This document shows, one piece after another, positions 2,438 to 25,218 of a DNA stretch of 34,842 nt. The stretch's first letter is position 1; the number at the start of each line of letters is the position of its first letter. Where the stretch lies: NCBI GenBank assembly GCA_016219905.1, contig JACRKA010000115.1, positions 1 through 34,842 of the forward strand. The letters run 5' to 3'. A program made the translations under genes and the position numbers. The notes beneath the pieces were generated by a model. It ran no database searches. It was not told the DNA's origin and saw nothing but the letters and a program-made list of their open reading frames with translations. The DNA is from Verrucomicrobiota bacterium. Its GTDB lineage: Bacteria; Verrucomicrobiota; Verrucomicrobiia; CAIQCK01.

Positions 2438-4543
2438 TCACTCCTTGCGCCGGCGAAGATGGTAGGTCGGCAGCATCCCGTAGCCTTTCGGCAACGGCGT
2501 TTGCCCGGCGTAATCACACGCGAAACCCGCCGCGCCTTCCGCCGCCGCCAGCGCCGCGAACGCCTGGCTCGCATATACCTCGCCGGGCGGCGCGATCGGC
2601 TCCATCCGTGCTGCGCGCGTCACGTGATTGCCCGTGAAGTTTGTCTGGCCGGCCACCGGGTCGCGGCACTCGTAAACCGGCCCGGCATGGAGCGCGATCC
2701 GCAGGCTCAACCCTGCCGGTAGCCCGTGCGCGGCCCAGTCCGTCTCTCCAACCAGCCCGGACAGGTCCAGCGCGAAAAGCCCCGCGTCGCTCACCGAATT
2801 GAACACGAAGTAGAGGCCGTCGCCCCACGTCGCCTTCAACACTGGCGCATCGGGCGACCGCGCAATCAGCCCGGCCACCGCGCCGAGGAAGTGACGGACG
2901 AATTTCGGGATCTCCGGCTCGCCCAGCTTGCTGAACCCGACCGCGTCCGCGAACAGCATCGCCATGATCCGCGCGCCGGATCGTTTCGCGCGTCCCGACG
3001 AGCGCGCGGCAGTCTTGCCGGACGCCACCGGGGCCATCGTCGTGCCGAGTTGTTCGGCGCGGATGGCCGCCAGCCCGCTCACCAACCGGCCCGCGTAGTC
3101 CTGTGCGATGTCGCCGATGGCCAGCTTGTGCTCCGAGGCCGTGACCACTTGCGCCGCGCGGTCGAGCGCCCGCTCCAGCCGCGCGGCCCACCGCGCGCCG
3201 TCAGCAGACGCCATCGCGTCGCGCAGGAAATCCTCCCGCCGATATGGCAGCACCACGCACAGCTCGTCGCCCCGCTCCAGCACCGCCTCCGCGAAGAGCA
3301 CGTTCAGGCCGCAGCCGGCCGTGACGTAGCCGAACCCGCACTGGAGTTGCTCGAGCTGCTCCTGCATGGCCCGCAAAGCCGCCCGCTCTGCATCCGCCCT
3401 CAACGGCCCGCCCGCGCCCGCTCCGGCAAAGGCCGCGACAGTCGGAATCCGCAGCCAGTTCTCGACGAGGCCACGATTCAGGCCCAGGCTCTCGACGATC
3501 AACTGCGCGTTCCGGCGCGTGGATTGCAGGTCGCCGTAACGGCCGTGGCTGGTCGCGAGGGCTTGCCCATACCAGTCCTCCGCCTCGGCGAGTTCGCGCC
3601 GGACCAACGCCGCTTCGCCCAGCGTCGCCAAGGTCCAATACGCGTCGCCGCCCGCGCCCTTCAGCCGCTCCAACTCCTGCACGCACTTGCCGCGCACTTC
3701 CAGCGCGAGCGCCGCGGCCTTGTCCCTGTCGCCGACCAGCAACGCCATCGTCGCCGCGTTGATGCCCGTCCAGTAATCGCCCGTGCCCTCGTAGGCCCGG
3801 CCATAAACCTCCGCCGCTTTGCCGAGATGCGCCTTGCGCGTTTTCTTGTCGGAGGCGGCCAGCCCCAAATCCTTGCAGGTGCGGGCCAGGATGCCGAGCG
3901 TCTCCGCGTCGCGATGGCCTTCCTTCTCCAGCTCGCGCAGGATCGCGTTGGCTTTTTCCGAGGCGCCGCTGCGGGCCAGCGCGAGCGCCTGGAGCTGGCG
4001 CAGCCGCGCGTCGCGCGTCGCGCTCTTCAAGCCCGCGGCGATGACATCGTAGGCGAGCAACGGCTCGCCGAGCCGCAGGATGCGGCCGCCCAACTGCGCA
4101 TAAACCTCCGGCGCGCCCGACCACACCTGCTCGTCGCGTGAGTGAAAGAGTTTGAGCAGTTCCACCAGCGTGAGCGACCGGGAGGTTTGAAGATGGCGGA
4201 GGACCCTCGTTGCCTGATTGTCCTCCGTCGTCAGCGGGCGGGGCGGCAGGACGGCCCGCCCCGGCGGCTGGAGGGTGAAGCCCAGGGCCAGGATGGCCCT
4301 GAGGGTCTCCATCGCGGTGTTGCGGTCGTATTGCTTCTCCGATTCCGACAGCGCCTCGTAGGGGATGAGGCTGGGATGTTCCTTCTTCTTGTCGTCACGC
4401 CGCGGGCCAAGCTTCCACCCCTCGGCCATGCGCAGCCGCGCCCAAGTCTCGTGCGCGTTGCGGGCCAGCAGTTCCGTGAGCCGGGCAACGGTGTCGTCCA
4501 AGGCGATCTTGGAAGTGTCTATGGGTTGCGGTTCGTAGGGCAT
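2438..4543 (-). CDS. RyR - TPR/DUF4071-like - SLOG-like - class III nucleotide cyclase fusion protein
   Basis: 701 residues, no signal peptide. Residues 15-95 match the prokaryotic RyR domain (NAHETWARLRMAEGW, HPSLIPYEALSESEKQYDR). Residues about 145-350 are helical TPR-like repeats of the DUF4071 (TRAFs-binding-like) type. Residues about 395-475 (FGYVTAGCGLNVLFAEA, LCVVLPYRREDF) resemble the Rossmann-like SLOG ligand-sensing fold. Residues 525-700 form a class III adenylate/guanylate cyclase domain with metal Asp533 (FADAVGF) and Asp575 (WGDG), Lys570 at the usual adenine-contact position and Arg646. The usual transition-state Asn is Thr642. The likely reaction is NTP to a cyclic nucleotide, switched by the sensor domains. 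The start at 4543 has GAGGGG upstream; earlier in-frame starts would run through the cyclic-nucleotide-binding gene. The product base and the triggering signal cannot be told from sequence. Confidence 0.88.
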   Translation of the reverse strand: MPYEPQPIDTSKIALDDTVARLTELLARNAHETWARLRMAEGWKLGPRRDDKKKEHPSLIPYEALSESEKQYDRNTAMETLRAILALGFTLQPPGRAVLPPRPLTTEDNQATRVLRHLQTSRSLTLVELLKLFHSRDEQVWSGAPEVYAQLGGRILRLGEPLLAYDVIAAGLKSATRDARLRQLQALALARSGASEKANAILRELEKEGHRDAETLGILARTCKDLGLAASDKKTRKAHLGKAAEVYGRAYEGTGDYWTGINAATMALLVGDRDKAAALALEVRGKCVQELERLKGAGGDAYWTLATLGEAALVRRELAEAEDWYGQALATSHGRYGDLQSTRRNAQLIVESLGLNRGLVENWLRIPTVAAFAGAGAGGPLRADAERAALRAMQEQLEQLQCGFGYVTAGCGLNVLFAEAVLERGDELCVVLPYRREDFLRDAMASADGARWAARLERALDRAAQVVTASEHKLAIGDIAQDYAGRLVSGLAAIRAEQLGTTMAPVASGKTAARSSGRAKRSGARIMAMLFADAVGFSKLGEPEIPKFVRHFLGAVAGLIARSPDAPVLKATWGDGLYFVFNSVSDAGLFALDLSGLVGETDWAAHGLPAGLSLRIALHAGPVYECRDPVAGQTNFTGNHVTRAARMEPIAPPGEVYASQAFAALAAAEGAAGFACDYAGQTPLPKGYGMLPTYHLRRRKE

Positions 4544-4616
4544 GGCCCCTCGTGTTCGGGCTGGCCGGCCAATCCGGCCGCGCCGAGTATAGGACAGCCC
4601 CGGCTTTGCTGCCACC

Positions 4617-5072
4617 TCAAGTCTGCGCGCTGCCGCGCGCGCGGGTCTCGGCGGCGACGAGGCGTTCGACGGCGGTGCGGAGCAACACCAGCGCGGCCTC
4701 GGGGAACCGGAGGAGGAACGACCGGAAGCGGGTGTAGTCGAGCGATACGAGCGCAGCGTCGGTCTCGGCTTTGAGGGTCGCGCTGCGGCCACGGTTCAGG
4801 AACATCCCATACTCGCCGATGATGTCGCCGGGGCCGAGCGTGCGCACGGGCTGTGTCTCGTCCGGCAGGAACACGGCCAGCCGGCCCTCGCCCACGACAT
4901 AGACCCGGTCGGAGGGGTCGCCCGCCTGGAAGAGTGTCTCGCCGGCGCGCAGCCGCTCGGTCTCCATCATCTCGGCGAGCAGCGCGCGGTCGGCGGGGGG
5001 AATGCCCGCGAAGAGCGGACAGGTGCTCAGGGTGCGCGTCCGCGCAGCGACGGTGAGGGCGGTGGTTTTCAT
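4617..5072 (-). CDS. Stand-alone cyclic-nucleotide-binding domain protein
   Basis: 151 residues of Crp/Fnr-type cyclic-nucleotide-binding (cNMP) domain and nothing else: no HTH and no membrane segment. The beta-roll runs over about 18-115 (CPLFAGIPPADRALLAEMM, DRVYVVGEGRLAVF). The phosphate-binding cassette at 86-100 keeps the two ligand-contact residues, Glu87 (GEYG) and Arg96 (RGRSATL), so binding of a cyclic nucleotide is credible. Its ATG overlaps the TGA of the ABC transporter gene by 4 bases (ATGA), which suggests translational coupling. The cyclase gene begins 73 bases downstream. The simplest reading is a receptor for the neighbouring cyclase's product, acting on the ABC protein or on the TIR protein. 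That link is inferred from position. It is not a transcription factor in the usual sense because a DNA-binding domain is missing. Confidence 0.9.
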   Translation of the reverse strand: MKTTALTVAARTRTLSTCPLFAGIPPADRALLAEMMETERLRAGETLFQAGDPSDRVYVVGEGRLAVFLPDETQPVRTLGPGDIIGEYGMFLNRGRSATLKAETDAALVSLDYTRFRSFLLRFPEAALVLLRTAVERLVAAETRARGSAQT

Positions 5073-7633
5073 GCGTGCTTGATCGTCCTGCGGAAGGTCT
5101 CCGAGGTCTGTTGGAGTTCCTTGAACGTGCCCGCGGCCACCAGCCGGCCGCCTTCAATCAGCCGGATCTCGTCGGCGGCCTGGATGAACTCCACGTCGTG
5201 GCTGACGGCGATGACGATGCGATCCTTCTTCCACTCTTGCAGCAGCACCGCCACGGCCGCGCGGCTGGCCGGGTCGAGCGCCGAGGTCGGTTCGTCAATC
5301 ACCAGCACGGGTGTGCGCCGCAGCAGCGCGCGGCAGAGGGCCACGAGCTGGCCCTGGCCGCCGGAGAGGTTGCCGCCGAGCCGGCCGATCTTGAACTCCA
5401 GCCCCAGTTGCGTGAACGCGTCCTTCAGGCCCTCTTGCTCGACGAAGTCCAGGACGGCCCGGTCCGCCAGCCGACTGCTGCGGCTGTTGCGGACGTCCAC
5501 GACGCCGAAGATGAGGTTCTCGCGCCACGTGAGGTGCGGATGCACGCGGTCGCTGGCAAACGGCAGGCACGCATCGCCGAGCATCTGCTTCAAGTGTTCC
5601 GCTTCCGCCGCGAAAAGATGCCTGCCATCGGGCTTGAGCAAAGCGGCTGTCTCTTTATCGTCGGCCAGCTCGACCGCTGAGGCTGTCAGCGCCACGATGC
5701 ACAGCGACAGCGCCTGGTCGGGTGACAGCGCGGTCTGCTGGAGGGCTTCCAAGTTCGACGAGCGCAGACGCCAGAGGCCCTCGTCGAGGGGATACGGGGA
5801 CAGTTGGCAATAGACGTGGTAGTTCGCGATGCCGAGGAGCTGGCGGTTTCCTTCGAGGAGTCCCCGCGCCAGCGCGACCAGCGCGCTGCCCAGCGGCGTC
5901 TGCGGCAGCGAGTGGAGTTTCCGCCGGCCCGCCTTGCCGAGCAACAAGGCCGCCACCCGCTCGCGGTCGCACCGGCCGGCGAGCAGGCTTTCCAGCACCC
6001 AATGCCCGCGGTCGGCGTGTCCTTCTTCGAGGGGCAGGACGACGACCTCGCAGGCCTCGCGCAGCCGTTCGCGCAGACGATGTCGCGCGGCGACGATGGC
6101 TTGCGCGATGGCCGCATGGCCGTCCGGCGTTCCCGGCGACATGTCGAGCGCCTTGAGGCGGCAGACGCGGCCCAAGCCGGTCCGCTCGATCACGCTCATG
6201 TCTTCCTCAGCCAGCGGCGCGCCTTCGGCGGCGGCCCCGTCGGCGGCGGGCCGGCCGAAGAAAAGGTTCTGGCGGATGCTCGCGTCGAGCAACGCGATGG
6301 ATTGCGGCATGAGGGAGAAGATCGCCGCGCGGTCGGTCCCCGTCATGGCGTCGAGCGGCGTCTGGCCGTAACGGGCGCTGCCGGCCTGCGGTTTCAACCG
6401 GCCGAGCAGGAGTTTCAGGAGCGTGGACTTGCCCGAGCCTGCGCCGCCGACGATGGCGGTCCATCGTCCGGGGGCGAAACTCGCGCTGACATCCACCACG
6501 CCGCCCTGCTGGGTTCCGTCGGGGCTGGTGTATCGGTAGGTCGCGCGCTCGATGTCAATCGCCACCGCCGGTTTCGCGGACGCGGCCGCCACGGGGCCGC
6601 CGCTCACGGTTTCCTGCGCCTCGTATTCGAGCAGGCGATTCATGCTGGCCCGCGCGATCTGGAACTCGAGCCGGAGGAAGACCAGTTCGGACGCGTCGCG
6701 GAACAACTCCGGCAATGCCCAGACCACGACGGGCACGAGCGCGAGGGCGGCGCTGGCGTTGGCGTTGGCGGCCTTGCGCATGTAAACGACGACGAGGATC
6801 ATCGCGATGAATGCGAGCAGGTAGGCGATGACGTTGGCGAGCCGCAGGCTGCTGTTCAGCCGGATATACTTCAAGAACGTCTCGCTCCTCCTGCCCAGCA
6901 GGCCCGTGAAGTGGTCCCGGATCTTCTGGTAGAGATGGCCCACCTGCACCTCCGGCGCGGCCCGCAGGAAATCCTCGAAGCGCGACTTGATGCGGTCATC
7001 CTGCTCCAGGTAATGCTCGTCCATCTCCTTCACCGGCCGCGTCGCGCGCATCGTCCAGAGCGCGCCGGCGACGCAGGCCACCACGCCCACGACGGCCAGG
7101 CGCCAATCCCGGATGAAGAAGAACGTGAGATTGCCGGCGAGCAGCAGCGCGCTCCACCAGACCTTCATGAGATTGGAGCGCCGGTCGCTGACGCGGTAGA
7201 GGTCCACGGCGAGCCGGTTGACCGTCTCTGCGGGCGAATGCCGGCTGAAGAACGAATCGTCCTTGTTCAGGAGGTTCAGCAGGATTTCCGTCTCCAGATC
7301 GTCCCGCGCCCGGATGCCGAGCCGGCCCGTGGCGAATGTCTTCCAATACTCCACAAAGCCCGAGACCAGCCGCACCGTGATGAAGGAGACCAACGCCAGC
7401 AGCGGCAGGCCGAGGTGGAATTGCTCCGCAAGTTTCGTCAACAACGCGGCCGCGCCCTCGCCGCCATGCTCCGATTTCTCGCCGCCGCCGAGCGACAGCG
7501 TCAGCAGGCCCAGCAGGTCGTTCTGCGCATACGTCAGGGCCGAGGCGAGCGTGCCGGCGACCATGAGTTCCGCGAGGCAGGCGCGGTAGCGCGAGTGCCA
7601 CATCGCAAACCAGGAATCGAGCCGTGATTTCAT
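5069..7633 (-). CDS. ABC exporter, fused membrane and ATPase domains, ATPase domain divided by a long insert
   Basis: 854 residues. Membrane segments spread over about 20-310 are followed by an ATPase domain with Walker A GGAGSGKST (396-404), Q-loop Gln444 (LMPQS), signature LSGGQ (756-760), Walker B LVIDEP (777-782) and switch His812. From Walker A to signature there are about 350 residues against about 100 in ordinary exporters. The extra stretch, roughly 461-700, ends in a second copy of a post-Q-loop motif (IRQNLFFG at 453-460, LTWRENLIFG at 701-710). It therefore looks like two merged ATPase halves or a duplication that gained an insert. The gene overlaps the upstream radical SAM gene and the downstream cyclic-nucleotide-binding gene by 4 bases each. 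I saw no N-terminal C39 peptidase domain, so it probably exports an already processed product. The cargo is unknown; the neighbouring peptide is the natural candidate. Confidence 0.92.
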   Translation of the reverse strand: MKSRLDSWFAMWHSRYRACLAELMVAGTLASALTYAQNDLLGLLTLSLGGGEKSEHGGEGAAALLTKLAEQFHLGLPLLALVSFITVRLVSGFVEYWKTFATGRLGIRARDDLETEILLNLLNKDDSFFSRHSPAETVNRLAVDLYRVSDRRSNLMKVWWSALLLAGNLTFFFIRDWRLAVVGVVACVAGALWTMRATRPVKEMDEHYLEQDDRIKSRFEDFLRAAPEVQVGHLYQKIRDHFTGLLGRRSETFLKYIRLNSSLRLANVIAYLLAFIAMILVVVYMRKAANANASAALALVPVVVWALPELFRDASELVFLRLEFQIARASMNRLLEYEAQETVSGGPVAAASAKPAVAIDIERATYRYTSPDGTQQGGVVDVSASFAPGRWTAIVGGAGSGKSTLLKLLLGRLKPQAGSARYGQTPLDAMTGTDRAAIFSLMPQSIALLDASIRQNLFFGRPAADGAAAEGAPLAEEDMSVIERTGLGRVCRLKALDMSPGTPDGHAAIAQAIVAARHRLRERLREACEVVVLPLEEGHADRGHWVLESLLAGRCDRERVAALLLGKAGRRKLHSLPQTPLGSALVALARGLLEGNRQLLGIANYHVYCQLSPYPLDEGLWRLRSSNLEALQQTALSPDQALSLCIVALTASAVELADDKETAALLKPDGRHLFAAEAEHLKQMLGDACLPFASDRVHPHLTWRENLIFGVVDVRNSRSSRLADRAVLDFVEQEGLKDAFTQLGLEFKIGRLGGNLSGGQGQLVALCRALLRRTPVLVIDEPTSALDPASRAAVAVLLQEWKKDRIVIAVSHDVEFIQAADEIRLIEGGRLVAAGTFKELQQTSETFRRTIKHA

Positions 7634-9030
7634 CCGACGAGCGCGGCCTCCCTGCCGGTCAGTTCAACCACCGCGGCGGCGCGGCGGCCATTGCGTTTGA
7701 CGTTGTGGGTCGCCCATTCGCGGATGCGGTCTTTGATTTCCTGGAGATGGCCCTCGCAATAACGCATCGCTTCAAATTGTCCCGGCTGGAACAGCCGGAT
7801 GTGGGGACAGCCGCCATCGCATTCCGGCAGGACCGGACACTGGATGCATCGCGGGTCCTGCAACCAGTCATAGACCAGCCACGGCACCAGGTTCGCGAGT
7901 TTCACCGGGCTGCCCGGCTCGATGGAGCCGTAGGCCCGTTCCGCCATGCCCACGTCTTCGGTGCATTTGAAAAGCCGGCCGTCCGGGCCGATCACCATGT
8001 TGAAGCGCGTGGTGGCGATGCAGCCCACCTGCGTCGGCCGGAAATCGGTCCCCACGGGCAGGCCCAATGCCCGCGCTTTCGGCCGTTCCCGCGCCACGAT
8101 CCGCGCATAGGCCGGGTAAGTCATCGCCGCAAAGCGCCCGCGCCCGCCACATTCCGGGTCGAACACATACGCGAAGAAGACCGTTTTCAGATGACGGTGC
8201 AGCCCGCGCCGGAGCAACTGGCCGTAAAGCGCATCGAACCCGGCCTTGTCATCGCGGACGACGTTGACGCGCAGATACACCGCCAGCCGCTGCGCGGCGA
8301 ACGCCAGGTTGTCCAACACCTGCTCTGCCGTCTCGCGGCCCTGCCGGTCGCGTTTCTCCGACGCGGGGATGTCCACCGTCACCTGCATGAACTTCAGCCG
8401 GCACTTGCGGAGCAAGCGGACGACATCCCGGCTCAACAGCATCCCGTTGCTGACGAGGACGGCCGAGTATTTCACGCCGGCCTGGTCGCACGCCGGGATC
8501 AGCCGCGCGCTGATGCGGGCGATGGCCTCGGCGGTCAGCAACGGCTCGCCGCCAAACCAACACATCTCCAAAGCCCGCTTGCCTCGCGCAGCCATGGCGA
8601 TGTGGCGGACGATCTCCTCCTCGCGGTCGCGCGTCAGCGTCTTGCCATGCCCGGCCGCTTGGACGCCGCTTTCAAAACAGTAGCGGCAGCTCAGGTTGCA
8701 GGCCAGCGTGGGCACGACGGTCACCCCCAACTTCCCGGCATCGAAACGCGCCGCCTGGTCGCGCAACCGGACCATATCGAGTTCATTGACTGCCTTGGAC
8801 ACCAACAAGCCCTTCGAGCACAGGAGGCTCAAGTCTTCGGAGGAAGTTTCGGGACGTGTCGGAATCGCGCAGCCCGCCTTCAGGTAACGACGCCATGTCG
8901 GGGCATTGACGACGACCAAGGAGCCGGTGAAGGTGTTGAACACCGCCTTGCGGCCGCGCGGAAGGTCCACCGCCATGTTGAACCGCGACGGAACCCATCC
9001 GTCCGCGGAAGATTCAAACCCCTTGCTCAT
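7630..9030 (-). CDS. Radical SAM/SPASM peptide maturase (copy 1)
   Basis: 466 residues from the ATG at 9030; a TTG at 9036 is an alternative start. The N-terminal ~95 residues (WVPSRFN, FNTFTGSLVVVN) resemble the lead-in of peptide-modifying SPASM enzymes. The radical SAM cluster motif CNLSCRYC gives Cys111, Cys115 and Cys118, followed by FGGEPLL. The C-terminus carries SPASM cysteines for auxiliary Fe-S clusters (VGCIATTRFN, FKCTED, CIQCPVLPECDGGCPH). Such enzymes use S-adenosylmethionine to install thioether, C-C or similar crosslinks in ribosomal peptides. The gene lies directly downstream of a small precursor-like gene and overlaps the ABC transporter gene by 4 bases. It is clearly paralogous to the enzyme at 12714-14153: the two align along their whole length, down to PSRFN, FNTFTG/HNTFTG and GGCPH. 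There is no convincing Shine-Dalgarno. Substrate assignment is inferred from position. Confidence 0.92.
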   Translation of the reverse strand: MSKGFESSADGWVPSRFNMAVDLPRGRKAVFNTFTGSLVVVNAPTWRRYLKAGCAIPTRPETSSEDLSLLCSKGLLVSKAVNELDMVRLRDQAARFDAGKLGVTVVPTLACNLSCRYCFESGVQAAGHGKTLTRDREEEIVRHIAMAARGKRALEMCWFGGEPLLTAEAIARISARLIPACDQAGVKYSAVLVSNGMLLSRDVVRLLRKCRLKFMQVTVDIPASEKRDRQGRETAEQVLDNLAFAAQRLAVYLRVNVVRDDKAGFDALYGQLLRRGLHRHLKTVFFAYVFDPECGGRGRFAAMTYPAYARIVARERPKARALGLPVGTDFRPTQVGCIATTRFNMVIGPDGRLFKCTEDVGMAERAYGSIEPGSPVKLANLVPWLVYDWLQDPRCIQCPVLPECDGGCPHIRLFQPGQFEAMRYCEGHLQEIKDRIREWATHNVKRNGRRAAAVVELTGREAALVG

Positions 9031-9110
9031 CGTCAATCTTGCAGCAACCCATCACCCCGCGCACCACCACGACAGCCATGCTCGGATCCGGCCCGGCCCA
9101 GCCTCATCAC

Positions 9111-9160: not shown

Positions 9161-9388
9161 TCAACCGCGCACGCCGCCAATCGCGCTCGGGCTGCAATAG
9201 CGATGCCCCCAGCACTGCCCCTCGACCTCATCGGTCCCGACGGCGCTCAGGACTTTGGCCACGTCCTTGATTGAAAGCTTCTTCTTGCCCTTCAGGACCG
9301 TTCCCTCAGGGAATACCAGTGTGACGCAGTTCGATCCGTCCGCGACAACCCGGACCGATGTTGTTTTTTTGATGGCTTTCTTGCTCAT
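9161..9388 (-). CDS. RiPP precursor-like peptide 1
   Basis: 75 residues: a lysine-rich N-terminus, a beta-like stretch (VTLVFPEGTVLKG), a helix-like stretch (LSIKDVAKVLSAV), then a cysteine-containing C-terminus. It shares 55 of the first 60 residues with the peptide at 14263-14499 and the last seven (AIGGVRG), but residues 61-68 (GHRYCSPS) replace an unrelated 11-residue stretch. A conserved leader with a diverged core is the hallmark of RiPP precursors. GAAGGAG lies upstream of the ATG at good distance, and a radical SAM/SPASM enzyme follows about 130 bases downstream on the same strand. Cys59 (GQCW) and Cys65 are candidate modification sites. Leader cleavage may fall near VEGQ. No family name is recognised; the RiPP role is inferred from pattern and context. 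Confidence 0.85.
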   Translation of the reverse strand: MSKKAIKKTTSVRVVADGSNCVTLVFPEGTVLKGKKKLSIKDVAKVLSAVGTDEVEGQCWGHRYCSPSAIGGVRG

Positions 9389-9517
9389 AGCTCGGACTCC
9401 TTCAAGGCCAGACTCGCTACGCCCGGTGACCGGAGGATGCGGCGCGCAGGCGGCATGGCCATGCGTTGTTATTCGTCACCACATCTATTGCTCCGATTCT
9501 CCAAGAGCGCACACAGC

Positions 9518-9546
9518 CAACTATGCCGACGCCCATCGTGCGTCAA
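9518..9546 (-). promoter_or_regulatory. Candidate sigma-70-type promoter for the precursor 1 operon
   Basis: On the minus strand TTGACG (9546-9541) and TAGTTG (9523-9518) are separated by exactly 17 bases. Transcription would begin near 9511, giving a leader of about 120 bases before the precursor ATG. The -35 is good and the -10 mediocre. The rest of 9389-9629, between this gene and the divergent methyltransferase gene, shows no further recognisable signal. Confidence 0.45.
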
Positions 9547-9629
9547 GCACGAAGTGACGCGGGAACATTCTGCTTGAAGCGACCCCGCGGCAGGCTAGCA
9601 TCGCAACCGATGTTGAACAGAGTCCTGGA

Positions 9630-10370
9630 ATGAAGCGTTCTCCCAAACTGAAGCTGGACCCGAAAAACTACTTTCGCCTCTCCAACGGACTCCTGCTGGC
9701 TGCTCCGCCGGAAGTCCCCTTCCGGGACATGTTCTCCGAGGTCTTCGAATCCGGCTGCTACCGGCCTTCTGCTGAGTTCCGAATCAGGCCACGCGATACC
9801 GTGCTTGATGTGGGCGCGAACGTCGGACTGTTCTCGATCTGGGTGGCATCGAACGTCCCTTCGGCGCGCATCTTCGCGTTCGAGGCCGCGTCGGACAATT
9901 TCCGGGCGTTGGCCGGGAACATCCGGAGCAATCGGCTCAAAGGCATCTCGGTTCACCATTACGCGGTGTCGGATGGCAGCAGCAAGCATGTGACCCTCTA
10001 CCGCGGGTTCCACGGCGGGATTCATTCCATCCGGCCGGAATACCGGAATTGGGATTCCCCGGCGGGAAGGCCCCGCAGGACCGAGAGGGTCCGCGCGATC
10101 ACGCTGGAGCGGATCTTCTCCCGGTTCAGAATCAAGACGGTGGATTTCCTGAAACTCGATTGCGAAGGCGCCGAATACGACATCCTGCTTTCCACACCGG
10201 GCAGAACTCTCTCCCGGATCCGAAAGATCGTCGGGGAATACCACGACCTCAGCGCGAAGCGGCACGGGGGCGTGTTGAAAGAGTTCCTGACAAGAAACGG
10301 GTTTCGGACCGAGTTCAGGGCCGCGGGGCGGGACACGCCGTGGGGAATGTTCGTTGCGACTTTCCGCTGA
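9630..10370 (+). CDS. FkbM-family S-adenosylmethionine-dependent methyltransferase
   Basis: 246 residues, no signal peptide. The SAM-binding motif is VLDVGANVGLFSI (58-70), followed by an acidic strand end (FAFEA), and the family-typical VDFLKLDCEGAEYDILL lies in the second half. The C-terminus ends in a WGMFVATFR strand, so the domain appears complete. FkbM enzymes mostly O-methylate hydroxyl groups of natural products, sugars or lipids. The gene is divergent from precursor 1 and is followed 28 bases later by the unusual radical SAM gene, so the pair is probably one operon. A tailoring role on the local peptide is inferred from position only; a role in surface sugars would fit the family equally well. 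There is no clear Shine-Dalgarno. Confidence 0.85.
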   Translation: MKRSPKLKLDPKNYFRLSNGLLLAAPPEVPFRDMFSEVFESGCYRPSAEFRIRPRDTVLDVGANVGLFSIWVASNVPSARIFAFEAASDNFRALAGNIRSNRLKGISVHHYAVSDGSSKHVTLYRGFHGGIHSIRPEYRNWDSPAGRPRRTERVRAITLERIFSRFRIKTVDFLKLDCEGAEYDILLSTPGRTLSRIRKIVGEYHDLSAKRHGGVLKEFLTRNGFRTEFRAAGRDTPWGMFVATFR

Positions 10371-10398
10371 GCCGCCGCGCGTAAGCCCCCAAAAATCC

Positions 10399-12162
10399 AT
10401 GATCCAATCCATCGTATTGCCGGGCCGGTTTCCGACCACCTTCTACGCCTACCCGGAGTTCACGCTGCTCAACCGGAGGATTCAGGATAAGGTCCGGTTC
10501 GAGAACCTCAACCTGCTTTTCTGGGAGTATCTATTCTCCACGGACTTCCTCGGGTTTCTGCGGAAGCAACTTGGCAGGGCTGCATCCCCGCAGATCAAGT
10601 TCCTCTCGACCGTTGTGGACTCGGGCACCATCGCCACGCTCCGGGACCGGAAATGTTTCTACGACCCGGAGCGATACCTCTCCGCCATCTCCTGCCTCGG
10701 CGGATATTTGGCCGTGGCCTCCAACCTCTTGCGGCAATTCAGCGGCCGGAATCTGGAGGGACTCTCGGTTTACGGCCTGAGCTACGACATGCGGCGTCCC
10801 TTCGGGGAGGTCTTGGCCTACGCGCGGAGCGAACGGAGTCCGGTCATGGATTTCTACCGGACGCGCTCGAAGCTGATTCGAAAACTCTTCGCCACCGATA
10901 TCGTCAGCGCCGTGACCTACAGCTACACCGATATCCTGCACCTCGGCATCCTGTGCGACCGATATCGGCGGCCCGGCGCCACCGTGCTCATCCACGGCCA
11001 CAGTTGGGAGAACAACGCCATTGATTACCTGATCGAGCACAGCGGCCAGTATGCCGACCTGCTCCGGCAAATTGACGGGATCGTCATTGCGGAGGAGGGC
11101 TTGGCCGAGACGTTCAACCAGCTTGCTGAAACAGGAACGACGGCGGGGATTCAGAATCTGCACCGGTTCGGCGACGGGGCCGTATCCGGCGGCGGCAAGC
11201 AGAGTCGCCGACGCAACGCCGTTGATGACCTAAACTTCGCGCGCCTGCGCCAGGAGGCGGAGCGTCAACGCCCGAAGATATTCTCTCCTGAACTGGTGAC
11301 TCTGCACCGGCTCTCCTCGCGAGGTTGCTACTGGAGCCGGTGCGCCTTCTGCCGGCACAACAGCCGGCACAGCGGTCGAGCCAGCGATCCGGACGAGGAG
11401 CCAGAGAATCCGTCCCAGTGGACAGCCAGCCTGCGCCAGCTTTCGAAGATTTCCCCGGTCCTCGTCTTCTGCGACCAGGGGATTGACCCGGAAGCCGCGG
11501 CGGCGTTGGCCGCCTCGGCGCGCGACGCCGGCATCACGGCCAAGTGGTCGCTTCGGACGCGGATGGATCCGCGCTGGGATGCCCGGCGCATCGCGGCGGT
11601 GGCCCGCGGAGGGTGCGCTGAGCTGATCTTCGGCTTGGAATCCATCAACAACGCCACCCTGCGCCGGATGAACAAGACGCCACTGACCGGCAAGGCTTAC
11701 CGTTCACTGGCGGAGCAGATTCATCGCGATGCCGCGGCCCGCGGCATCTACAACCACTACTGCATGATCTACGGCTACCCGGGCGAGACGTATACAGAAT
11801 GCCGGCGAACCCTCAACTTCCTGGCGGACCTCATCCGCGACGTCCCCAAGACGACCTTCAGCTTGAACCGATTCCAGCTCCTCTATAAGTCGGACGTCTT
11901 CAACTCGCCAAGAACTTACGGCATGCGTTCAGTGACCAAGGCGCCGATGCTGTCCAACATGTTCTGGTATGACGAACCGAAGAGCCAGCGCAGCATCGAG
12001 CGGGTGGAGAACGGACTCGCCGGCTTCTATCGGGCCATAGGCTACCGCGAGGACATCGTTGCAAACCCGATACTCATGCAGACACTGCCGGGTTTCATCA
12101 ACGACAGCGGCCATGCGCCGTTGCTCAAGGCAGGTCATCGGGGAAATCCATTCATGGCGTGA
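10399..12162 (+). CDS. Radical SAM enzyme with cobalamin-domain-like N-terminus and CX4CX2C cluster
   Basis: 587 residues from the ATG at 10399. Residues about 165-245 (DIVSAVTYSYTDILHLGIL, ATVLIHGHSW, IDGIVIAEEGLAETF) follow the layout of the B12-binding Rossmann domain of class B radical SAM enzymes, though no DxHxxG motif is present. The radical SAM domain starts at SSRGCYWSRCAFC: Cys310, Cys315 and Cys318 are spaced CX4CX2C rather than CX3CX2C. It continues with WSLRTRMDP, LIFGLESIN and YGYPGET. The style recalls the RiPP maturation radical SAM proteins that carry a longer first cluster spacing (RGCWWG type). The likely chemistry is methylation or rearrangement at unactivated carbon. It follows the FkbM gene by 28 bases. 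The 3' neighbour is the convergent small gene at 12355-12525. The substrate is unknown. Confidence 0.85.
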   Translation: MIQSIVLPGRFPTTFYAYPEFTLLNRRIQDKVRFENLNLLFWEYLFSTDFLGFLRKQLGRAASPQIKFLSTVVDSGTIATLRDRKCFYDPERYLSAISCLGGYLAVASNLLRQFSGRNLEGLSVYGLSYDMRRPFGEVLAYARSERSPVMDFYRTRSKLIRKLFATDIVSAVTYSYTDILHLGILCDRYRRPGATVLIHGHSWENNAIDYLIEHSGQYADLLRQIDGIVIAEEGLAETFNQLAETGTTAGIQNLHRFGDGAVSGGGKQSRRRNAVDDLNFARLRQEAERQRPKIFSPELVTLHRLSSRGCYWSRCAFCRHNSRHSGRASDPDEEPENPSQWTASLRQLSKISPVLVFCDQGIDPEAAAALAASARDAGITAKWSLRTRMDPRWDARRIAAVARGGCAELIFGLESINNATLRRMNKTPLTGKAYRSLAEQIHRDAAARGIYNHYCMIYGYPGETYTECRRTLNFLADLIRDVPKTTFSLNRFQLLYKSDVFNSPRTYGMRSVTKAPMLSNMFWYDEPKSQRSIERVENGLAGFYRAIGYREDIVANPILMQTLPGFINDSGHAPLLKAGHRGNPFMA

Positions 12163-12354
12163 CCGGACGTCACCCATTTCGGCGAGCAACCGGTTTCGAC
12201 ATCCGCGCTGCCGGTCTCGCAACTATGCTGCAGGTGTCGCGCTGGCAGAGCACGAATCGCCGCCAGCGCGGGAACCGTCTCTGCCGGGCCAGGCCCTGAT
12301 CCCGTTCTGCAACCTCAGGCGACAGCCCTCTCTACCAAACTCAACCCGACTTTC

Positions 12355-12525
12355 CTACAGGCAGCTTGCCCAAAGGGATTTCTTGGACATGCAGATTTGG
12401 CCCGCCACGTCTGCTGGCGCTTTCTTAGAGCCTTTTTCAAACTGCTTCTTCGTGATCTTGTATTTCTTCAACACGGTTGCCGGGATCTCGTAGTATGTGT
12501 TTTTTGACTTTATGAGAATTGACAT
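12355..12525 (-). CDS. Short AT-rich precursor-like peptide 3
   Basis: 56 residues: MSILIKSKNTYYEIPATVLK opens a lysine-rich leader, then come KKYKITKKQFEKGSKK, ADVAGQIC and a short C-terminus with two cysteines and a tryptophan (LWASCL). AAGGA sits upstream of the ATG, and a near-consensus promoter is 51 bases further up. Its GC content is far below its surroundings (23 of 60 bases GC over 12421-12480). It shares with precursors 1 and 2 a TVLK element in the leader and a V-x-G-Q motif directly before the first core cysteine. It is divergent from the radical SAM/SPASM gene at 12714, the probable partner. No known family is recognised. Promoter, Shine-Dalgarno, leader/core layout and context together make a real gene likely; its modified product is inferred. 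Confidence 0.8.
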   Translation of the reverse strand: MSILIKSKNTYYEIPATVLKKYKITKKQFEKGSKKAPADVAGQICMSKKSLWASCL

Positions 12526-12575
12526 GATTCTTCCTTCACAAGTTTTTCCAGTTGCCAGTTCCTATCACGACAAGG

Positions 12576-12604
12576 TAGTTATGATTTCTTGGGTGCCATG
12601 TCAA
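12576..12604 (-). promoter_or_regulatory. Strong sigma-70-type promoter for precursor 3
   Basis: On the minus strand TTGACA (12604-12599), a 17-base spacer and TAACTA (12581-12576). Transcription would start near 12569, leaving a leader of about 44 bases with a good Shine-Dalgarno. It is the best promoter match in the peptide region. The remaining bases up to 12713 show no clear promoter for the divergent enzyme gene. Confidence 0.65.
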
Positions 12605-12713
12605 GAACTGAGCGACGCAGGGCCGGGTAACAGCGCGCTGCTTGCGAATAAATGCCGAGTGAAGTTCGCGAGTGGACAGTTTTGCGCGCTTGCAGATGGA
12701 CGGAGAAAACAAA

Positions 12714-14153
12714 ATGCGACAGAAAGAGACGCCCACCGCCGTTTTCGAGGTTGCAGGCAGGAATTCTGCGATCTCACTACCACCGCCTGCCACAATCTCA
12801 AAGGCACTTGAAGCGCTTGGGGAAACGTGGATTCCTTCCCGGTTCAATGTCACGACAGCGCTGCGGGGCAGCCGAAAGGCGATCCATAACACGTTCACTG
12901 GCGCGACGGCAGTTCTGAACCACCGTAGTTGGCAACGATACCTTCGGTCTGGTTTTGAATACCGTCTTTCTGGACAGCCAGTCCCGGAACAACTGCAGGC
13001 TCTTTACTCAAGAGGCTTCCTCGTATCGAAGGACGTGGATGAGGTTGAACTGGCTCGATTCCACTACCTCGCGTCACGTTTTGACAGGGACACTCTCAAC
13101 GTGACCATGCTTTGCACGTTGGCCTGCAATCTGTGTTGCGCCTACTGTTTCGAAGGTCAAGCACAAGCAGACCATCGCGGCACCACGATGTCCAAGGAGA
13201 CAGAGGAGGCGGTCGTTGCCCACCTGAGCAGAGCAGTTCGCGGCAAAAAGGGGCTGTCCATCTGGTGGTTCGGAGGAGAACCGCTTCTCACGATGGGGCC
13301 TATGGAAAGAATCAGCTCCCGACTCATCCGGATCTGCAAGAAAGGCGGCATTCATTATACCGCCATGATCGCAACCAACGGCACGTTGCTGACGCGCGAT
13401 GTCATAAAACAACTGCGCCGATGGAAGGTCGCATCTGCTCAAGTGACGCTGGACATTCCCAGAGCAGCGAAGCGGGATAAGCATGGCCGTGAGACTCAGG
13501 AGAAAGTATTGGACAACCTGTGCCTCGCCGCTGGGAAACTCAAGGTTCATCTCCGAATCAACCTATCAAAGGACAACGAAGCAGAGTTTGACCGATTGTA
13601 TCGCGGGCTGATCCGAAGAAAGCTTCACAAAACCTTGGATATGGTGATGGGTATTGCCCACGTCTTTGCGCCAGAGCGCGGCCGCCTTGGTTGCACAGTT
13701 TGTCCGGTTGGACACCAATCATACGTGCATGTCTTGGCGCGCGAGCACGCCAAGGCGGCAGCGTTGGGCCTGCCTCTCAGAGAATCTCTCGTGTCGTCGC
13801 CGGGCGGCGGTTGCTCGGCGACTCGCGAGTCGGCCGTGGTGATCGGTCCTGACGGACTATTGTATAAATGTGTCGAGGACGTTGGGCTGGCCAACCGTGC
13901 GTATGGCTCTGTGTTCCTTGAAGACTTTGTGAAGCCCGGCAATCTGCTTCCGTGGTTGACATACGATTGGTTCCAACACGCCATGTGCAAGGGCTGCCCT
14001 GTGTTGCCGCAATGCGCGGGTGGCTGTCCGCACAGGCGGCTGTTTCAATCTGGCAGTCTCAAGGATGAGGATTTCTGCTATTGGGACATGCGGGGCGATT
14101 TGGAGGACCGAATTCGTAAACACGCCCTCGAAAAGGAGGCGTCAGGGGTCTAA
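12714..14153 (+). CDS. Radical SAM/SPASM peptide maturase (copy 2)
   Basis: 479 residues from the ATG at 12714, chosen because GGAG stands 8 bases upstream; in-frame ATGs at 12672 and 12696 lack such a site. After a ~125-residue N-terminal part (WIPSRFN, HNTFTGATAVLN), the cluster motif CNLCCAYC gives Cys138, Cys142 and Cys145, followed by FGGEPLL. The SPASM region has GGGCSATRES, YKCVEDVG and CKGCPVLPQCAGGCPH. It is paralogous to the enzyme at 7630-9030 over the full length. It has an insertion with two extra cysteines (GCTVCPVG) where copy 1 has CGG. GC content is lower than in copy 1 (for example 31 of 60 over 13321-13380). It lies between the divergent precursor 3 and the convergent precursor 2, so either peptide may be its substrate. 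Confidence 0.92.
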   Translation: MRQKETPTAVFEVAGRNSAISLPPPATISKALEALGETWIPSRFNVTTALRGSRKAIHNTFTGATAVLNHRSWQRYLRSGFEYRLSGQPVPEQLQALYSRGFLVSKDVDEVELARFHYLASRFDRDTLNVTMLCTLACNLCCAYCFEGQAQADHRGTTMSKETEEAVVAHLSRAVRGKKGLSIWWFGGEPLLTMGPMERISSRLIRICKKGGIHYTAMIATNGTLLTRDVIKQLRRWKVASAQVTLDIPRAAKRDKHGRETQEKVLDNLCLAAGKLKVHLRINLSKDNEAEFDRLYRGLIRRKLHKTLDMVMGIAHVFAPERGRLGCTVCPVGHQSYVHVLAREHAKAAALGLPLRESLVSSPGGGCSATRESAVVIGPDGLLYKCVEDVGLANRAYGSVFLEDFVKPGNLLPWLTYDWFQHAMCKGCPVLPQCAGGCPHRRLFQSGSLKDEDFCYWDMRGDLEDRIRKHALEKEASGV

Positions 14154-14212
14154 GAGATCTGTGGGCGTCGCTGCTTGAGCGCATTCGTCTGAATGATTGG
14201 CCCGCTGGCCAT

Positions 14213-14234
14213 GCCGGGCAAAGCGAAGTCCGGC
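14213..14234 (-). promoter_or_regulatory. Hairpin downstream of precursor 2, also between convergent genes
   Basis: GCCGG and CCGGC around a 12-base loop, the counterpart of the hairpin at 9111-9132. Here no maturase gene follows on the minus strand; the convergent radical SAM gene ends at 14153. It may end or stabilise the precursor 2 transcript. There is no U-tract. Confidence 0.4.
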
Positions 14235-14262
14235 CTCGGATGTTGTTCAGTTCAACCCACGA

Positions 14263-14499
14263 TCAACCGCGCACGCCTCCAATCGCGGTTGGCGTGCGCA
14301 CAGATCCAGATCTATGTAGCCAGCACTGCCCCTCGACCTCATCGGTCGCCACGGCGCTCAAGACTTTGGCCACGTCCTTGACCGAAAGCTTCTTCTTGCC
14401 CTTCAGGACCGTTCCCTCGGGGAACACCAGCGTGACACGGTTTGATCCGTCCGCGACGACCTTGACCGACGTTGTTTTCTTGATGGTTTTCTTGCTCAT
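14263..14499 (-). CDS. RiPP precursor-like peptide 2
   Basis: 78 residues. The first 60 differ from precursor 1 at only five positions (A5T, R13K, C21R, I40V, G51A), and both end in AIGGVRG. Residues 61-71 are LHRSGSVRTPT instead of GHRYCSPS, so this copy has a single cysteine, Cys59 in GQCW. It follows the radical SAM/SPASM gene at 14598-15878 by 98 bases on the same strand, whereas precursor 1 precedes its enzyme. GGAAGGA stands about 14 bases upstream of the ATG and a second AAGGAA is immediately adjacent to it. The gene looks like a duplicate of precursor 1 with a new core. It could be made by either the adjacent enzyme or by copy 2 at 12714-14153. Function inferred. Confidence 0.85.
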   Translation of the reverse strand: MSKKTIKKTTSVKVVADGSNRVTLVFPEGTVLKGKKKLSVKDVAKVLSAVATDEVEGQCWLHRSGSVRTPTAIGGVRG

Positions 14500-15952: not shown

Positions 15953-16618
15953 ATGGCGAAGTCAAATCCAGTCCTTGACGCGTATCTGGGCATCTCCTCC
16001 AAGACCCCGGAAGAAGCCGTGCTCCGCCTGCTCATCGAGGTGGGCGCGCAATTCGTTGGCGCCGAGGAAGGGTCGCTCCTTGTCTTCGACGAGAGGAAGA
16101 AAGACTTGGTCTTCGCCATGACCATCGGCAGCGCGGCGTCGGAGAAGACCCTGGTCGGCCAGCGCGTCCCCATAGGCAAGGGCATCACGGGACTCGCCGC
16201 GCAGACCCGCGAGGTCCAGATCGGCGCGCCCACTTTCGGCACCCGCCAGGCAAAACGCCGCGGCGCCAAGGCTGAGCCTCCCAAGTCGGTCCTCGCCGCG
16301 CCCATGCTGATCGGCGACCGGCTCGTCGGCGTGCTGACGGCGGTGAGTTTCCGGCCGGGGAAACTGTTCAGCAGCGACGACGCCCTGCTCTACGCGCGCG
16401 TGGCGGCGGTCGCCGGCGTCGTCGTGGAGCAATCCCGGCGGCTCGCGGCCGTGGAGGCTGCCCGGAAAGATGCCCGCCGCCCCCGTGCCGTCAGCGAGGA
16501 GGAACGCTGCGAACAGCAACTGGTGGACGCCGTCGCCCGTCTCGCCCGGAGCCGGCCGCAGGCGAAAGCCCGCATCGCGCGCCTGCTTTCCGACATCGCC
16601 GGGTTGGTGGCGGAATGA
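15953..16618 (+). CDS. GAF domain protein
   Basis: 221 residues, no membrane segment. Residues about 18-150 form a GAF domain (LLIEVGAQFVGAEEGSLLVFD, VPIGKGITGLAAQ, SVLAAPMLIGDRLVGVLTAV). The C-terminal ~60 residues are charged and helical without a recognisable output domain. GAF domains bind small ligands, often cyclic nucleotides, so it is a candidate receptor in a window with two cyclase-type proteins; the ligand cannot be read from the sequence. It is first in a three-gene operon, with the subtilase gene beginning 20 bases after its stop. GAGG lies about 5 bases before the ATG, and the gene is divergent from the radical SAM enzyme. Confidence 0.85.
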   Translation: MAKSNPVLDAYLGISSKTPEEAVLRLLIEVGAQFVGAEEGSLLVFDERKKDLVFAMTIGSAASEKTLVGQRVPIGKGITGLAAQTREVQIGAPTFGTRQAKRRGAKAEPPKSVLAAPMLIGDRLVGVLTAVSFRPGKLFSSDDALLYARVAAVAGVVVEQSRRLAAVEAARKDARRPRAVSEEERCEQQLVDAVARLARSRPQAKARIARLLSDIAGLVAE

Positions 16619-16638: not shown

Positions 16639-17406
16639 ATGAGCCTCCGAGCCGCACTCAAAGTCAATCTGCAGAAACTACGCTCCAAGAAACTGCGCCC
16701 CGTCACCGTGGCGGTGGTGGACAGTGGCGTGGACGCGAAACATCGGGAGCTGGCGGGGCGCGTGGTTCGCGCCGTGCGAGTGGAGAGCAGCGCGAAAGGG
16801 GATCGAATCTTCAGGAGCGCGGTCCCGCGGAACGCCGACGTCTATGGCCACGGCACCGCCGTGGCCAGCATCATTACGCAGATCGCGCCCAACGCGCGCA
16901 TCATGGACGTGCGTGTCCTTGACGCCAACAACGTCTGCACCGGCGAGACCCTGATCGCCGGCTTCCGTCACGCCATCGAGTCCGGCGCGCGGATCATCAA
17001 CATGAGCCTGGCCGCGAGCGCCAAATTCGCCGAGCCGCTGCACGAGCTTTGCCAGACCGCGTATCGGCAGAACCAGATCGTCGTCGCGTCGAGACGCAAC
17101 GTGCCGCTGACCGACGATGGTTTCCCTGCGGAGATCGCCACCTGCATCGGCGTGGACATCGGGAAGTTTCCCTCCCCGTTTCAACTGCTCTTTGCCGAAG
17201 ACCACGTCATCGAGTTCGTGGCCCACGGCGACCAGGTGGTCGTCGCCGCGCCGGGCGGCGGCCGGACGACCGTCACCGGCACCAGCTTCGCCACGCCCGC
17301 CGTCGCCGGATTGTGCGCGTTGCTGGTCGGCGCCAACCCCGACCTGCGTCCGTTTGACCTGAAGAGCCTGCTTCGGGCCTTCTCGACCAATTGCGCCGCG
17401 CGATGA
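16639..17406 (+). CDS. Small cytoplasmic subtilisin-like (S8) serine peptidase
   Basis: 255 residues that are almost only the catalytic domain. The triad is Asp28 (VAVVDSG), His71 (YGHGTAVAS) and Ser216 (GTSFATP). Asn154 (VVASRRN) sits where the oxyanion-hole Asn is expected, though the usual AAGN context is altered. No signal peptide or inhibitor propeptide is seen, so it probably acts inside the cell. Compact S8 peptidases of this kind are used in several RiPP pathways to remove leaders. Placed in a cluster with three precursor-like genes and no C39 peptidase, it is the best candidate for leader removal. Its stop overlaps the ATG of the following membrane protein by 4 bases. A general quality-control or regulatory protease role is the alternative. 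Confidence 0.88.
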   Translation: MSLRAALKVNLQKLRSKKLRPVTVAVVDSGVDAKHRELAGRVVRAVRVESSAKGDRIFRSAVPRNADVYGHGTAVASIITQIAPNARIMDVRVLDANNVCTGETLIAGFRHAIESGARIINMSLAASAKFAEPLHELCQTAYRQNQIVVASRRNVPLTDDGFPAEIATCIGVDIGKFPSPFQLLFAEDHVIEFVAHGDQVVVAAPGGGRTTVTGTSFATPAVAGLCALLVGANPDLRPFDLKSLLRAFSTNCAAR

Positions 17407-17907: not shown

Positions 17908-18990
17908 TTAAGAAGCAGGAGTTGACCCCGCGAACTCCTCTTCAGGTATGCCGCGGCGGCGGGCTTGGAGGACGCTGCGGCGCGCCTCCTCCTTCAGGCC
18001 CAGTGAACGATAGGTGCGGGCAAGCTCCAGCCAGCCGTCGGCGAACTTCGGCCAGTGGCGGGTGAGATCCTCGTAGTAAAGGCGGGCGGTCTCGACATCG
18101 TTCCGCTCGGTCATGCCCTGCCCGGCGTGGTAAAGGGCGGCCGGATTCGTGGGGTCAATGTTGAGCACATGCTCGCAAAGGCTGAGCGCCTCGTCGCTGA
18201 TGCGGTCGCCAGCGACGGAGGCCTGATACACCTGCCAGCAGGTGTGGACCCACAAGTCAAAGGTGTTGCGCTGAAGCGCCTGGCGACCCAGGCGGACGAA
18301 GCCTTGAAGCAACTCCGGCTCGAGCCGCTTGCCGATGTTCATGAAACATTCCGCGAGTTCATGCACGCCGAGGGGAACCACCACCCCTTTCATCGGTGTG
18401 ATGCGGCGCGGCCCGAAGAGCAGGTTGCGGATGCGCCGGTTGATTTGCTTGAAAGCGGGGTCGGACACGAACACTTGATATCGGTCTCCTTCGCGCGATA
18501 CGGATTCGATCCTCTTGCCGGCGTTGATGGCGAAGCCGCACTTGACGAAACCCTTGGCCGTCCTTCGCGCCCAAACAAGGCCCGAGTTGATGCCCGCCGC
18601 GAGGCCGGTGCTGGACAGGCCCGAGAAAAGGCGCTCGGTGTTGAGCGGGGAGCCGAGCCAGCCGCACTTGAGGGTCACAGCCAGGCAGATCAACAGATAG
18701 ACGTCATTTGGCGGGCTGTCCGTGTGGAGGAAGACGACCAGTTCGTCGCCGACGAGTTCGACGTTGTAGTCCACGTGCTCGGTCTTGGAAAAGGTCTTGA
18801 AGAAGAACCGCGTTTGGCGGACGCAGAGGTCATGAAAGGCGGAGACGTAATCCGCGTAGTCCTTCAGGCCCATCACGCTGGCGAAGTCGCTGGAACTCAC
18901 CAGATCCATGAAAAGCACGGACGCTTGGAGCGGGCCGCTTTCGCCTTCCGTCCACTGCGCGGGGGGCTTGGACACGGTTTCGTCGGCCAT
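17908..18990 (-). CDS. Class III cyclase-like domain with C-terminal TPRs
   Basis: 360 residues, cytoplasmic. Residues about 22-215 read as a class III cyclase-type domain: Asp29 in VLFMDLVSSS and Asp82 in ELVGDELVVF match the two metal-binding Asp positions, with GINSGLVWA and GFAINAGKRIESVSREG at the later motif positions. The usual transition-state Asn/Arg pair may be Asn176 and Arg180, but the fit is loose, so activity is uncertain. Residues about 260-350 hold TPR-like repeats (ALSLCEHVLNIDPTNPAALYHAGQ, WPKFADGWLELARTYRSLG). It starts 3 bases after the lipoprotein gene stop, with AGGTAG upstream, so the two are an operon. It is a second possible source of, or receptor for, cyclic nucleotides here, distinct from the RyR fusion protein. 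Confidence 0.75.
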   Translation of the reverse strand: MADETVSKPPAQWTEGESGPLQASVLFMDLVSSSDFASVMGLKDYADYVSAFHDLCVRQTRFFFKTFSKTEHVDYNVELVGDELVVFLHTDSPPNDVYLLICLAVTLKCGWLGSPLNTERLFSGLSSTGLAAGINSGLVWARRTAKGFVKCGFAINAGKRIESVSREGDRYQVFVSDPAFKQINRRIRNLLFGPRRITPMKGVVVPLGVHELAECFMNIGKRLEPELLQGFVRLGRQALQRNTFDLWVHTCWQVYQASVAGDRISDEALSLCEHVLNIDPTNPAALYHAGQGMTERNDVETARLYYEDLTRHWPKFADGWLELARTYRSLGLKEEARRSVLQARRRGIPEEEFAGSTPAS

Positions 18991-25013: not shown

Positions 25014-25218
25014 CAAGGCCGAAGGCCGGGGGTCGAAGGCCGAAGGAAGTCCGAAAACCGAAATCCGCGACAGGTTTGTCAGCGACGGTTTTCGGCAGCA
25101 CAGTTTTTCGAATGGCTGCCAGCAGTTCGCCAAATGCGGATCGTCTCGCGAAGCCCTGGAGCTTCGGCCTTCGGATTTCGACCTTCCTTCGGCCTTCGGC
25201 CTTCGACCTTCGGCCTTG
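25014..25218. repeat. Palindromic repeat element between secG and oppA
   Basis: The left arm (25014-25067) and right arm (25172-25218) are imperfect inverted repeats rich in GGCCGAAGG and TCGAAGG units, about 105 bases apart. The arms themselves contain short tandem GCCGAAGG steps. The layout is that of a REP or MITE-like element. It overlaps the 5' part of the oppA reading frame. No transposase is encoded in it. Confidence 0.7.

Follow-up and report, generated by a model that had tools for sequence, protein, structure and literature searches.

Two small genes that share their beginning and end but differ in the middle raise the question of what they encode when they lie among radical S-adenosylmethionine (SAM) enzymes. 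In a 34,842-nucleotide stretch of Verrucomicrobiota DNA (assembly GCA_016219905.1, contig JACRKA010000115.1; hereafter the window), such a pair, P1 and P2, occupies positions 9161–9388 and 14263–14499, and a preliminary description based on the letters had proposed that the two are precursors of ribosomally synthesised and post-translationally modified peptides (RiPPs). We consider it probable (about 0.82) that P1 and P2 are paralogous RiPP precursors of one dedicated gene cluster, each with a leader, a variable core and a conserved C-terminal tail. The leader is under purifying selection, the core changes, the tail is kept and the genes co-occur with radical SAM maturases; we therefore read P1 and P2 as RiPP precursors, and they belong to none of the known RiPP classes tested.

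Anatomy and variation of the proposed precursor peptides

Both open reading frames (ORFs) are present exactly as first described, on the minus strand; P1 encodes MSKKAIKKTTSVRVVADGSNCVTLVFPEGTVLKGKKKLSIKDVAKVLSAVGTDEVEGQCWGHRYCSPSAIGGVRG, and P2 is its 78-residue partner. In a codon-by-codon comparison, 15 of the first 60 codons were changed, 10 of them synonymously only, which leaves 5 amino-acid differences and confirms the leader identity of 55/60. The two peptides also share the seven-residue end AIGGVRG. The segment between GQCW and this end had been called unrelated, and for the pair this holds, as sequence and length (8 versus 11 residues) differ; across eight copies, however, it is not wholly variable, since 'QC[WYL]xH' and '(V)(R)TP[ST]' recur as core elements and the freely varying stretch is thereby limited to about 3–10 residues. 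When the own genome was searched with the first copy, the second was recovered with an E-value of 3e-35, far above chance, and no further copy was found, so that the pair is unique there. As had been noted, the likeness of the DNA runs beyond the stop codon (180 nt at 91% and 88 nt at 85% identity), and this non-coding 3' flank is alike in all copies, whereas the 5' flanks of P1 and P2 resemble each other only at the GAAGGA ribosome-binding site and not farther upstream. An RNA element in the 3' flank was considered and rejected (no Rfam match; shuffle z-scores of about −1), as was a hairpin across the stop codon, for which covariation support was lacking. The leader, whose family the first reading had not recognised, matches no Pfam or NCBIfam family, and structure prediction for the precursor was poor (predicted local distance difference test, pLDDT, of 50).

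When the GTDB genome set (a pattern-based scan with P1) and about 90 relatives were searched, only two genomes besides that of the window proved to contain the peptide, both from Verrucomicrobia of the same family and both metagenome assemblies with groundwater in their name. Of the eight copies, a count that includes one partial tandem copy, two lie in the window, while JACRQF (L005) and JACRJX (L006 and L007) have three each. A search with a leader profile had been proposed at the outset; run over the class with a profile of seven copies, it gave no further credible copy in 384 genomes, in which distant leader homologues amounted to chance-level fragments within larger frames. The C-terminal ends of the eight copies are QCWGHRYCSPSAIGGVRG, QCWLHRSGSVRTPTAIGGVRG, QCYLHSLKERIQVRTPSAIGGVRG, QCYLHIRKLELIRDGVRTPSAIGGVRG, QACWGRIVNTPNPTSIGGVRG, QCLLHRHRHVPTAVGGVRG, QCYLHAFRHRIEVRTPTAIGGVRG and QCYLHSLKHKFEVRTPSAIGGVRG. 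The cysteine and [IV]GGVRG occur in all of them and C-x-x-H and P[ST] in nearly all, with sequence and length varying in between; length changes fall after the QC motif and before the tail, and apart from one A/S and I/V variation before GG the tail IGGVRG is without exception.

The leader is under strong purifying selection, with ratios of non-synonymous to synonymous substitution rates (dN/dS) of 0.05–0.16 in all 21 pairs at dS values of 0.33–1.12. The dN of the alignable cores (0.17–0.22) is several-fold above the leader value, and the remaining cores cannot be aligned without gaps. Tail codons differ at third positions while [IV]GGVRG is kept, which places the constraint on the protein and supports the earlier suggestion that AIGGVRG is a putative follower sequence.

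A conserved gene cluster in three genomes

A TBLASTN comparison of the window's proteins with the relatives showed that the order of the cluster is conserved in three genomes from two genera (77–94% identity): TPR/cyclase-like protein, subtilisin, GAF protein, QhpD/PapB-like radical SAM enzyme and precursor, followed by the fourth radical SAM enzyme with FkbM, precursor, SPASM1, ABC exporter and cNMP-binding protein (Table 1). The regions upstream of the precursors are alike within each slot (P1 with L005 13326 and L007 10001; P2 with L005 10001 and L007 6908), which suggests that the two slots are probably older than the split of the genera. The precursor, the QhpD/PapB-like enzyme, SPASM1, the fourth radical SAM enzyme, the TPR protein and the cluster's own subtilisin occur in the same three genomes, and the search of the remaining family members, two of which belong to the relatives' genus, found none of these genes. 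Searches at strict thresholds with the exporter insert, the QhpD/PapB-like enzyme, SPASM1 and the fourth radical SAM enzyme retrieved no related cluster outside these genomes; these searches covered samples of one phylum or class, and the other phyla were covered by the pattern-based GTDB scan with P1 alone.

Conserved, non-variable homologues away from radical SAM genes would have spoken against precursors, as the preliminary description had pointed out, and were looked for; instead, 7 of the 8 copies lie within the cluster. The eighth (L006) is unlinked, but its genome contains the cluster, and its core, too, is different. This orphan precursor (L006 10001–10231), with no radical SAM gene seen nearby, is flanked by a phosphonate-binding/PQQ-propeller protein and a LacI/AraC-type regulator. 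The locus shows two general features of RiPP gene clusters: a short precursor whose leader is conserved and whose core varies, and enzymes for modification, cleavage and export that are linked to it and co-occur with it. A leader-binding domain, which not every RiPP class requires, is a further such feature and is considered below.

Table 1. Features of the precursor cluster, with positions in the window
Feature	Position	Strand	Remarks
cNMP-binding-domain protein	4617–5072	−	conserved neighbour of exporter
ABC exporter, MsbA-like	5069–7633	−	240-residue insert within ATPase domain
SPASM1, TIGR04463/Clo7bot/geopeptide-like radical SAM/SPASM maturase	7630–9036	−	TIGR04463 E 3e-54, below cut-off; CX3CX2C intact; probable N-terminal RRE
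Conserved non-coding 3' flank of P1	9108–9160	−	no Rfam match, no covariation support
P1, precursor peptide, 75 aa, SPASM-gene slot	9161–9388	−	orthologous slots L005 13326–13562, L007 10001–10246
P1 conserved tail AIGGVRG, putative follower	9164–9184	−	[IV]GGVRG in 8/8 copies
P1 variable core segment GHRYCSPS (residues 61–68)	9185–9208	−	
FkbM-family methyltransferase	9630–10370	+	TIGR01444 E 3e-29
Fourth radical SAM protein, CX4CX2C	10354–12162	+	distant PhpK/RiPP C-methyltransferase similarity
56-aa ORF, putative third precursor, different leader type	12355–12525	−	end DVAGQICMSKKSLWASCL; GC 0.46; good ribosome-binding site
SPASM2, second TIGR04463-like maturase	12672–14153	+	TIGR04463 E 1e-61; window only; GC 0.56
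Conserved non-coding 3' flank of P2	14210–14262	−	DNA similarity to P1 flank
P2, precursor peptide, 78 aa, QhpD/PapB-like slot	14263–14499	−	orthologous slots L005 10001–10246, L007 6908–7150
P2 conserved tail AIGGVRG	14266–14286	−	
P2 variable core segment LHRSGSVRTPT (residues 61–71)	14287–14319	−	
QhpD/PapB-like radical SAM/SPASM maturase, 426 aa	14598–15878	−	PapB E 1e-40, nif11 rSAM E 3e-35, QhpD-type E 1e-34, all below cut-offs
GAF-domain protein	15953–16618	+	
Subtilisin (S8), QhpE-like	16639–17406	+	catalytic Asp/His/Ser motifs intact; QhpE-type match E 3e-28
TPR protein, cyclase-like N-terminal part (by eye)	17908–18990	−	92–94% identity between clusters; absent where cluster absent

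Predicted modifying enzymes, protease and exporter

The three radical SAM/SPASM genes reported nearby are indeed present, and a fourth radical SAM gene, which gives no SPASM match, lies with them; the enzymes of the cluster are closest to peptide maturases. CX3CX2C is found in SPASM1, the QhpD/PapB-like enzyme and SPASM2 (in the latter within CTLACNLCCAYC), and CX4CX2C in the fourth protein of all three genomes; in the window, the start of this protein is likely the ATG at 10399. The highest scores of SPASM1 and SPASM2 are with maturases of the TIGR04463, Clo7bot, CefB and geopeptide types, but they reach only 184–209 bits against TIGR04463 (curated cut-off 525 bits) and fall outside that family; a search of one paper library found no papers on TIGR04463 or on FkbM RiPPs of Verrucomicrobia. 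For the QhpD/PapB-like enzyme, the closest solved structure is CteB (E 6e-31). CteB, and also SuiB over its full length (452–468 columns), are likewise the best structural neighbours in the PDB of a low-confidence model of SPASM1, whose N-terminus is modelled as strand-strand-strand-helix-helix-helix. PqqD-like RiPP recognition element (RRE) domains consist of three strands followed by three helices, and the N-terminal part of SPASM1 is likely such a leader-binding domain.

The subtilisin is presumably cytoplasmic; inspection by eye found no evident signal peptide in it. A subtilisin about 39% identical to it occurs in all seven family members searched and, in the window's genome, adjoins a receiver-GAF protein, so that the cluster seems to have taken in such a GAF and subtilisin pair. 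At L048 (4254–6290), a receiver-GAF protein is followed by a subtilisin paralogue (39% identical to that of the cluster), possibly a sensor-protease pair. The exporter insert (window 5534–6250) has no Pfam match; both related clusters have it too, and a sample of 388 genomes from the phylum gave no other instance.

Between the fourth radical SAM gene and P2, the window's copy of the cluster alone carries a module (12160–14153) of SPASM2, about 45% identical to SPASM1, and the 56-aa ORF. Their GC contents (0.56 and 0.46, respectively) contrast with about 0.65 in the neighbouring genes, and the end of the short ORF, inspected by eye, appears to show, over a short stretch, a GQ-C junction like that of the other precursors. 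This module is perhaps an acquired putative third precursor with its own maturase, a view that we favour somewhat.

Comparison with known systems

In the maturation of QhpC, QhpD introduces Cys-to-Asp/Glu thioethers, QhpE cuts the leader before translocation and QhpF exports the product (PMC7876137). The cluster described here resembles qhp in placing a radical SAM/SPASM enzyme, a subtilisin-like leader protease and an ABC exporter beside a small leader-bearing precursor. It differs in its unrelated precursor with a short variable core that shows no Cys-to-Asp/Glu pattern, in the addition of SPASM1, the fourth radical SAM enzyme and FkbM, and in its two precursor slots; no QhpA, QhpB or QhpG of the QHNDH operon was found among the cluster genes profiled.

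One maturase has its closest matches in the PapB/QhpD/CteB group, and the invariant core cysteine is a further point of likeness to ranthipeptides of the PapB and CteB/SCIFF types. In contrast to these, the maturase remains under the PapB cut-off, and the cluster includes methyltransferases and a subtilisin. PapB accepts cysteine with Asp/Glu at n = 0–6 and refuses the reverse order (PMC9413430); the motif Cys-X0-6-Asp/Glu was found in only 1 of the 8 cores here, so that any cross-link would mostly use a different partner and assignment of the peptides to the ranthipeptides is not warranted. With the TIGR04463, Clo7bot, geopeptide and CefB maturases, the likeness lies in SPASM1 and SPASM2, which match the TIGR04463 model along almost its whole length; the partner peptide here, however, is not rich in cysteine.

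With the ere proteusin pathway, in which the FkbM enzyme EreM acts as a RiPP backbone N-methyltransferase alongside C-methylation and was described in 2022 as the only FkbM enzyme characterised in a RiPP cluster (PMC9259500), the present locus shares an FkbM gene, here adjoining the methyltransferase-like radical SAM gene and thus a possible counterpart of that pairing. It is unlike ere in a leader without an NCBIfam or Pfam leader family and in a core of about 17–26 residues versus 46. S8 proteases and fixed sequences flanking a variable core also recall the cyanobactins (PatA/PatG), from which the cluster differs in its inferred radical SAM chemistry, its one small S8 protease and its tail (IGGVRG versus AYDG); the PatA/PatG model scored 38 bits (cut-off 421), the precursor matched no cyanobactin family, and no cyanobactin enzymes were found.

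Proposed mechanism and competing explanations

Based on this arrangement, we propose the following hypothetical pathway, in which (i) the fixed leader would be bound by the RRE-like N-terminal domain of SPASM1 and handed to the maturases; (ii) SPASM1 and/or the QhpD/PapB-like enzyme would install a radical cross-link on the invariant core cysteine after GQ; (iii) methylation would follow, by FkbM at the backbone (N- or O-methyl) and by the fourth radical SAM enzyme at carbon (C-methyl); (iv) the subtilisin would remove the leader near the conserved EV-x-G-Q/C junction and possibly the tail at IGGVRG; and (v) the ABC exporter would release the product, with the cNMP-binding and GAF proteins acting in regulation. 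The two slots would allow two different cores to be processed by one enzyme set.

Several points weigh against this interpretation. The full-length peptide-maturase models of NCBIfam all score under their curated cut-offs, and the maturases are thus not members of those equivalogs. Confidence in the SPASM1 model is low (mean pLDDT 57), and no RRE structure was retrieved when the N-terminal part served as a sequence query. A conserved acidic acceptor for a PapB-type thioether is missing, the L006 copy stands apart from the cluster, the genomes of both named relatives were assembled from metagenomes, and that of the window is split into 393 contigs. The RiPP product itself is a prediction from the genes.

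The joint presence of the QhpD-type and QhpE-type matches and an MsbA-like exporter, with its published parallel (PMC7876137), would also suit a role of P1 and P2 as small subunits or cofactor-bearing proteins like QhpC, used within a larger enzyme instead of being released as free peptides, with the conserved tail as a structural element. We regard this as very unlikely, since QhpA/QhpB-like subunits and a QhpG-like flavoprotein are lacking among the cluster genes profiled, the segment after the cysteine changes in length and sequence between copies of one genome, and the 17–26 residues from the cysteine onwards are too short to fold like a 9-kDa gamma subunit. It is more improbable still that the variable segment is a neutral or decaying, poorly constrained linker of a small conserved regulatory protein whose folded leader part is the working element. 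Constraint is indeed centred on residues 11–60 and part of the core changes freely, but [IV]GGVRG and Q(A)C persist in all copies and C-x-x-H in most, which indicates that the C-terminus is not decaying. Moreover, a tandem copy of the C-terminal half in L005 keeps the amino acids of the leader end exactly.

This tandem copy (L005 10111–10580) is an abutting head-to-tail duplication (231/240 bp, 82% identity) that begins near leader residue 38 and takes in the core, the tail and the 3' flank. Its second unit (10341–10580) lacks the front of the leader and has no in-frame start with an evident ribosome-binding site, yet 8 of the 8 changes in its leader end are synonymous (P ~1e-5). Either the unit is expressed from a weak start, or it is retained as a reservoir of core sequence; it is the most unusual lead and rests on one case. 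Such a unit, under amino-acid constraint without an evident start, would fit an addition to the RiPP reading in which cores are exchanged by recombination: the fixed leader end, the tail and the 3' flank would provide the homology arms, and leaderless copies would act as silent donor cassettes. The shared 3' flank and the L007 slot 1 core, which resembles the L005 slot 2 core more than the L005 slot 1 core, point the same way. Nevertheless, we hold the exchange to be quite unlikely: a single leaderless copy is known, for which a weak GTG start is possible, and the arms differ at many synonymous sites and show no sign of recent conversion. A bolder version of the RiPP interpretation, unlikely in our judgement, is a new class in which the QhpD/PapB-related enzyme links cysteine to a non-acidic partner, for instance the conserved histidine, an aromatic neighbour or a tail residue, and in which cores set between a fixed leader and a fixed tail are varied as duplicated and recombined cassettes, including leaderless donors.

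Other features of the window

The gene at 2438–4792, whose upstream end overlaps the cNMP gene in another frame, codes for a protein that matches RyR, TPR-S and, weakly, guanylate cyclase domains; it was rejected as a cluster member, as it is not conserved in the clusters of the relatives. A PADLOC search for defence systems gave domain-level matches only. Direct repeats of 126 bp at 1–1490 code for a protein with at least 12 WD40 repeats that runs off the contig end, and an imperfect 54-nt inverted repeat rich in GGCCTTCGG units lies at 25014–25218.

Implications

Read as RiPP precursors, P1 and P2 follow a general principle that is known, but the precursor family and its enzyme set are new, and the final chemistry probably is as well. 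If this is right, they represent a hitherto unnamed family of precursors for which one short-core pathway brings together a dense array of enzymes: two to three SPASM enzymes, a further radical SAM enzyme with the unusual CX4CX2C motif and FkbM. With no acidic acceptor in place, the cross-link formed by the QhpD/PapB-like enzyme becomes a directly testable question. The fixed ends flanking exchangeable cores would make the system attractive for peptide engineering.

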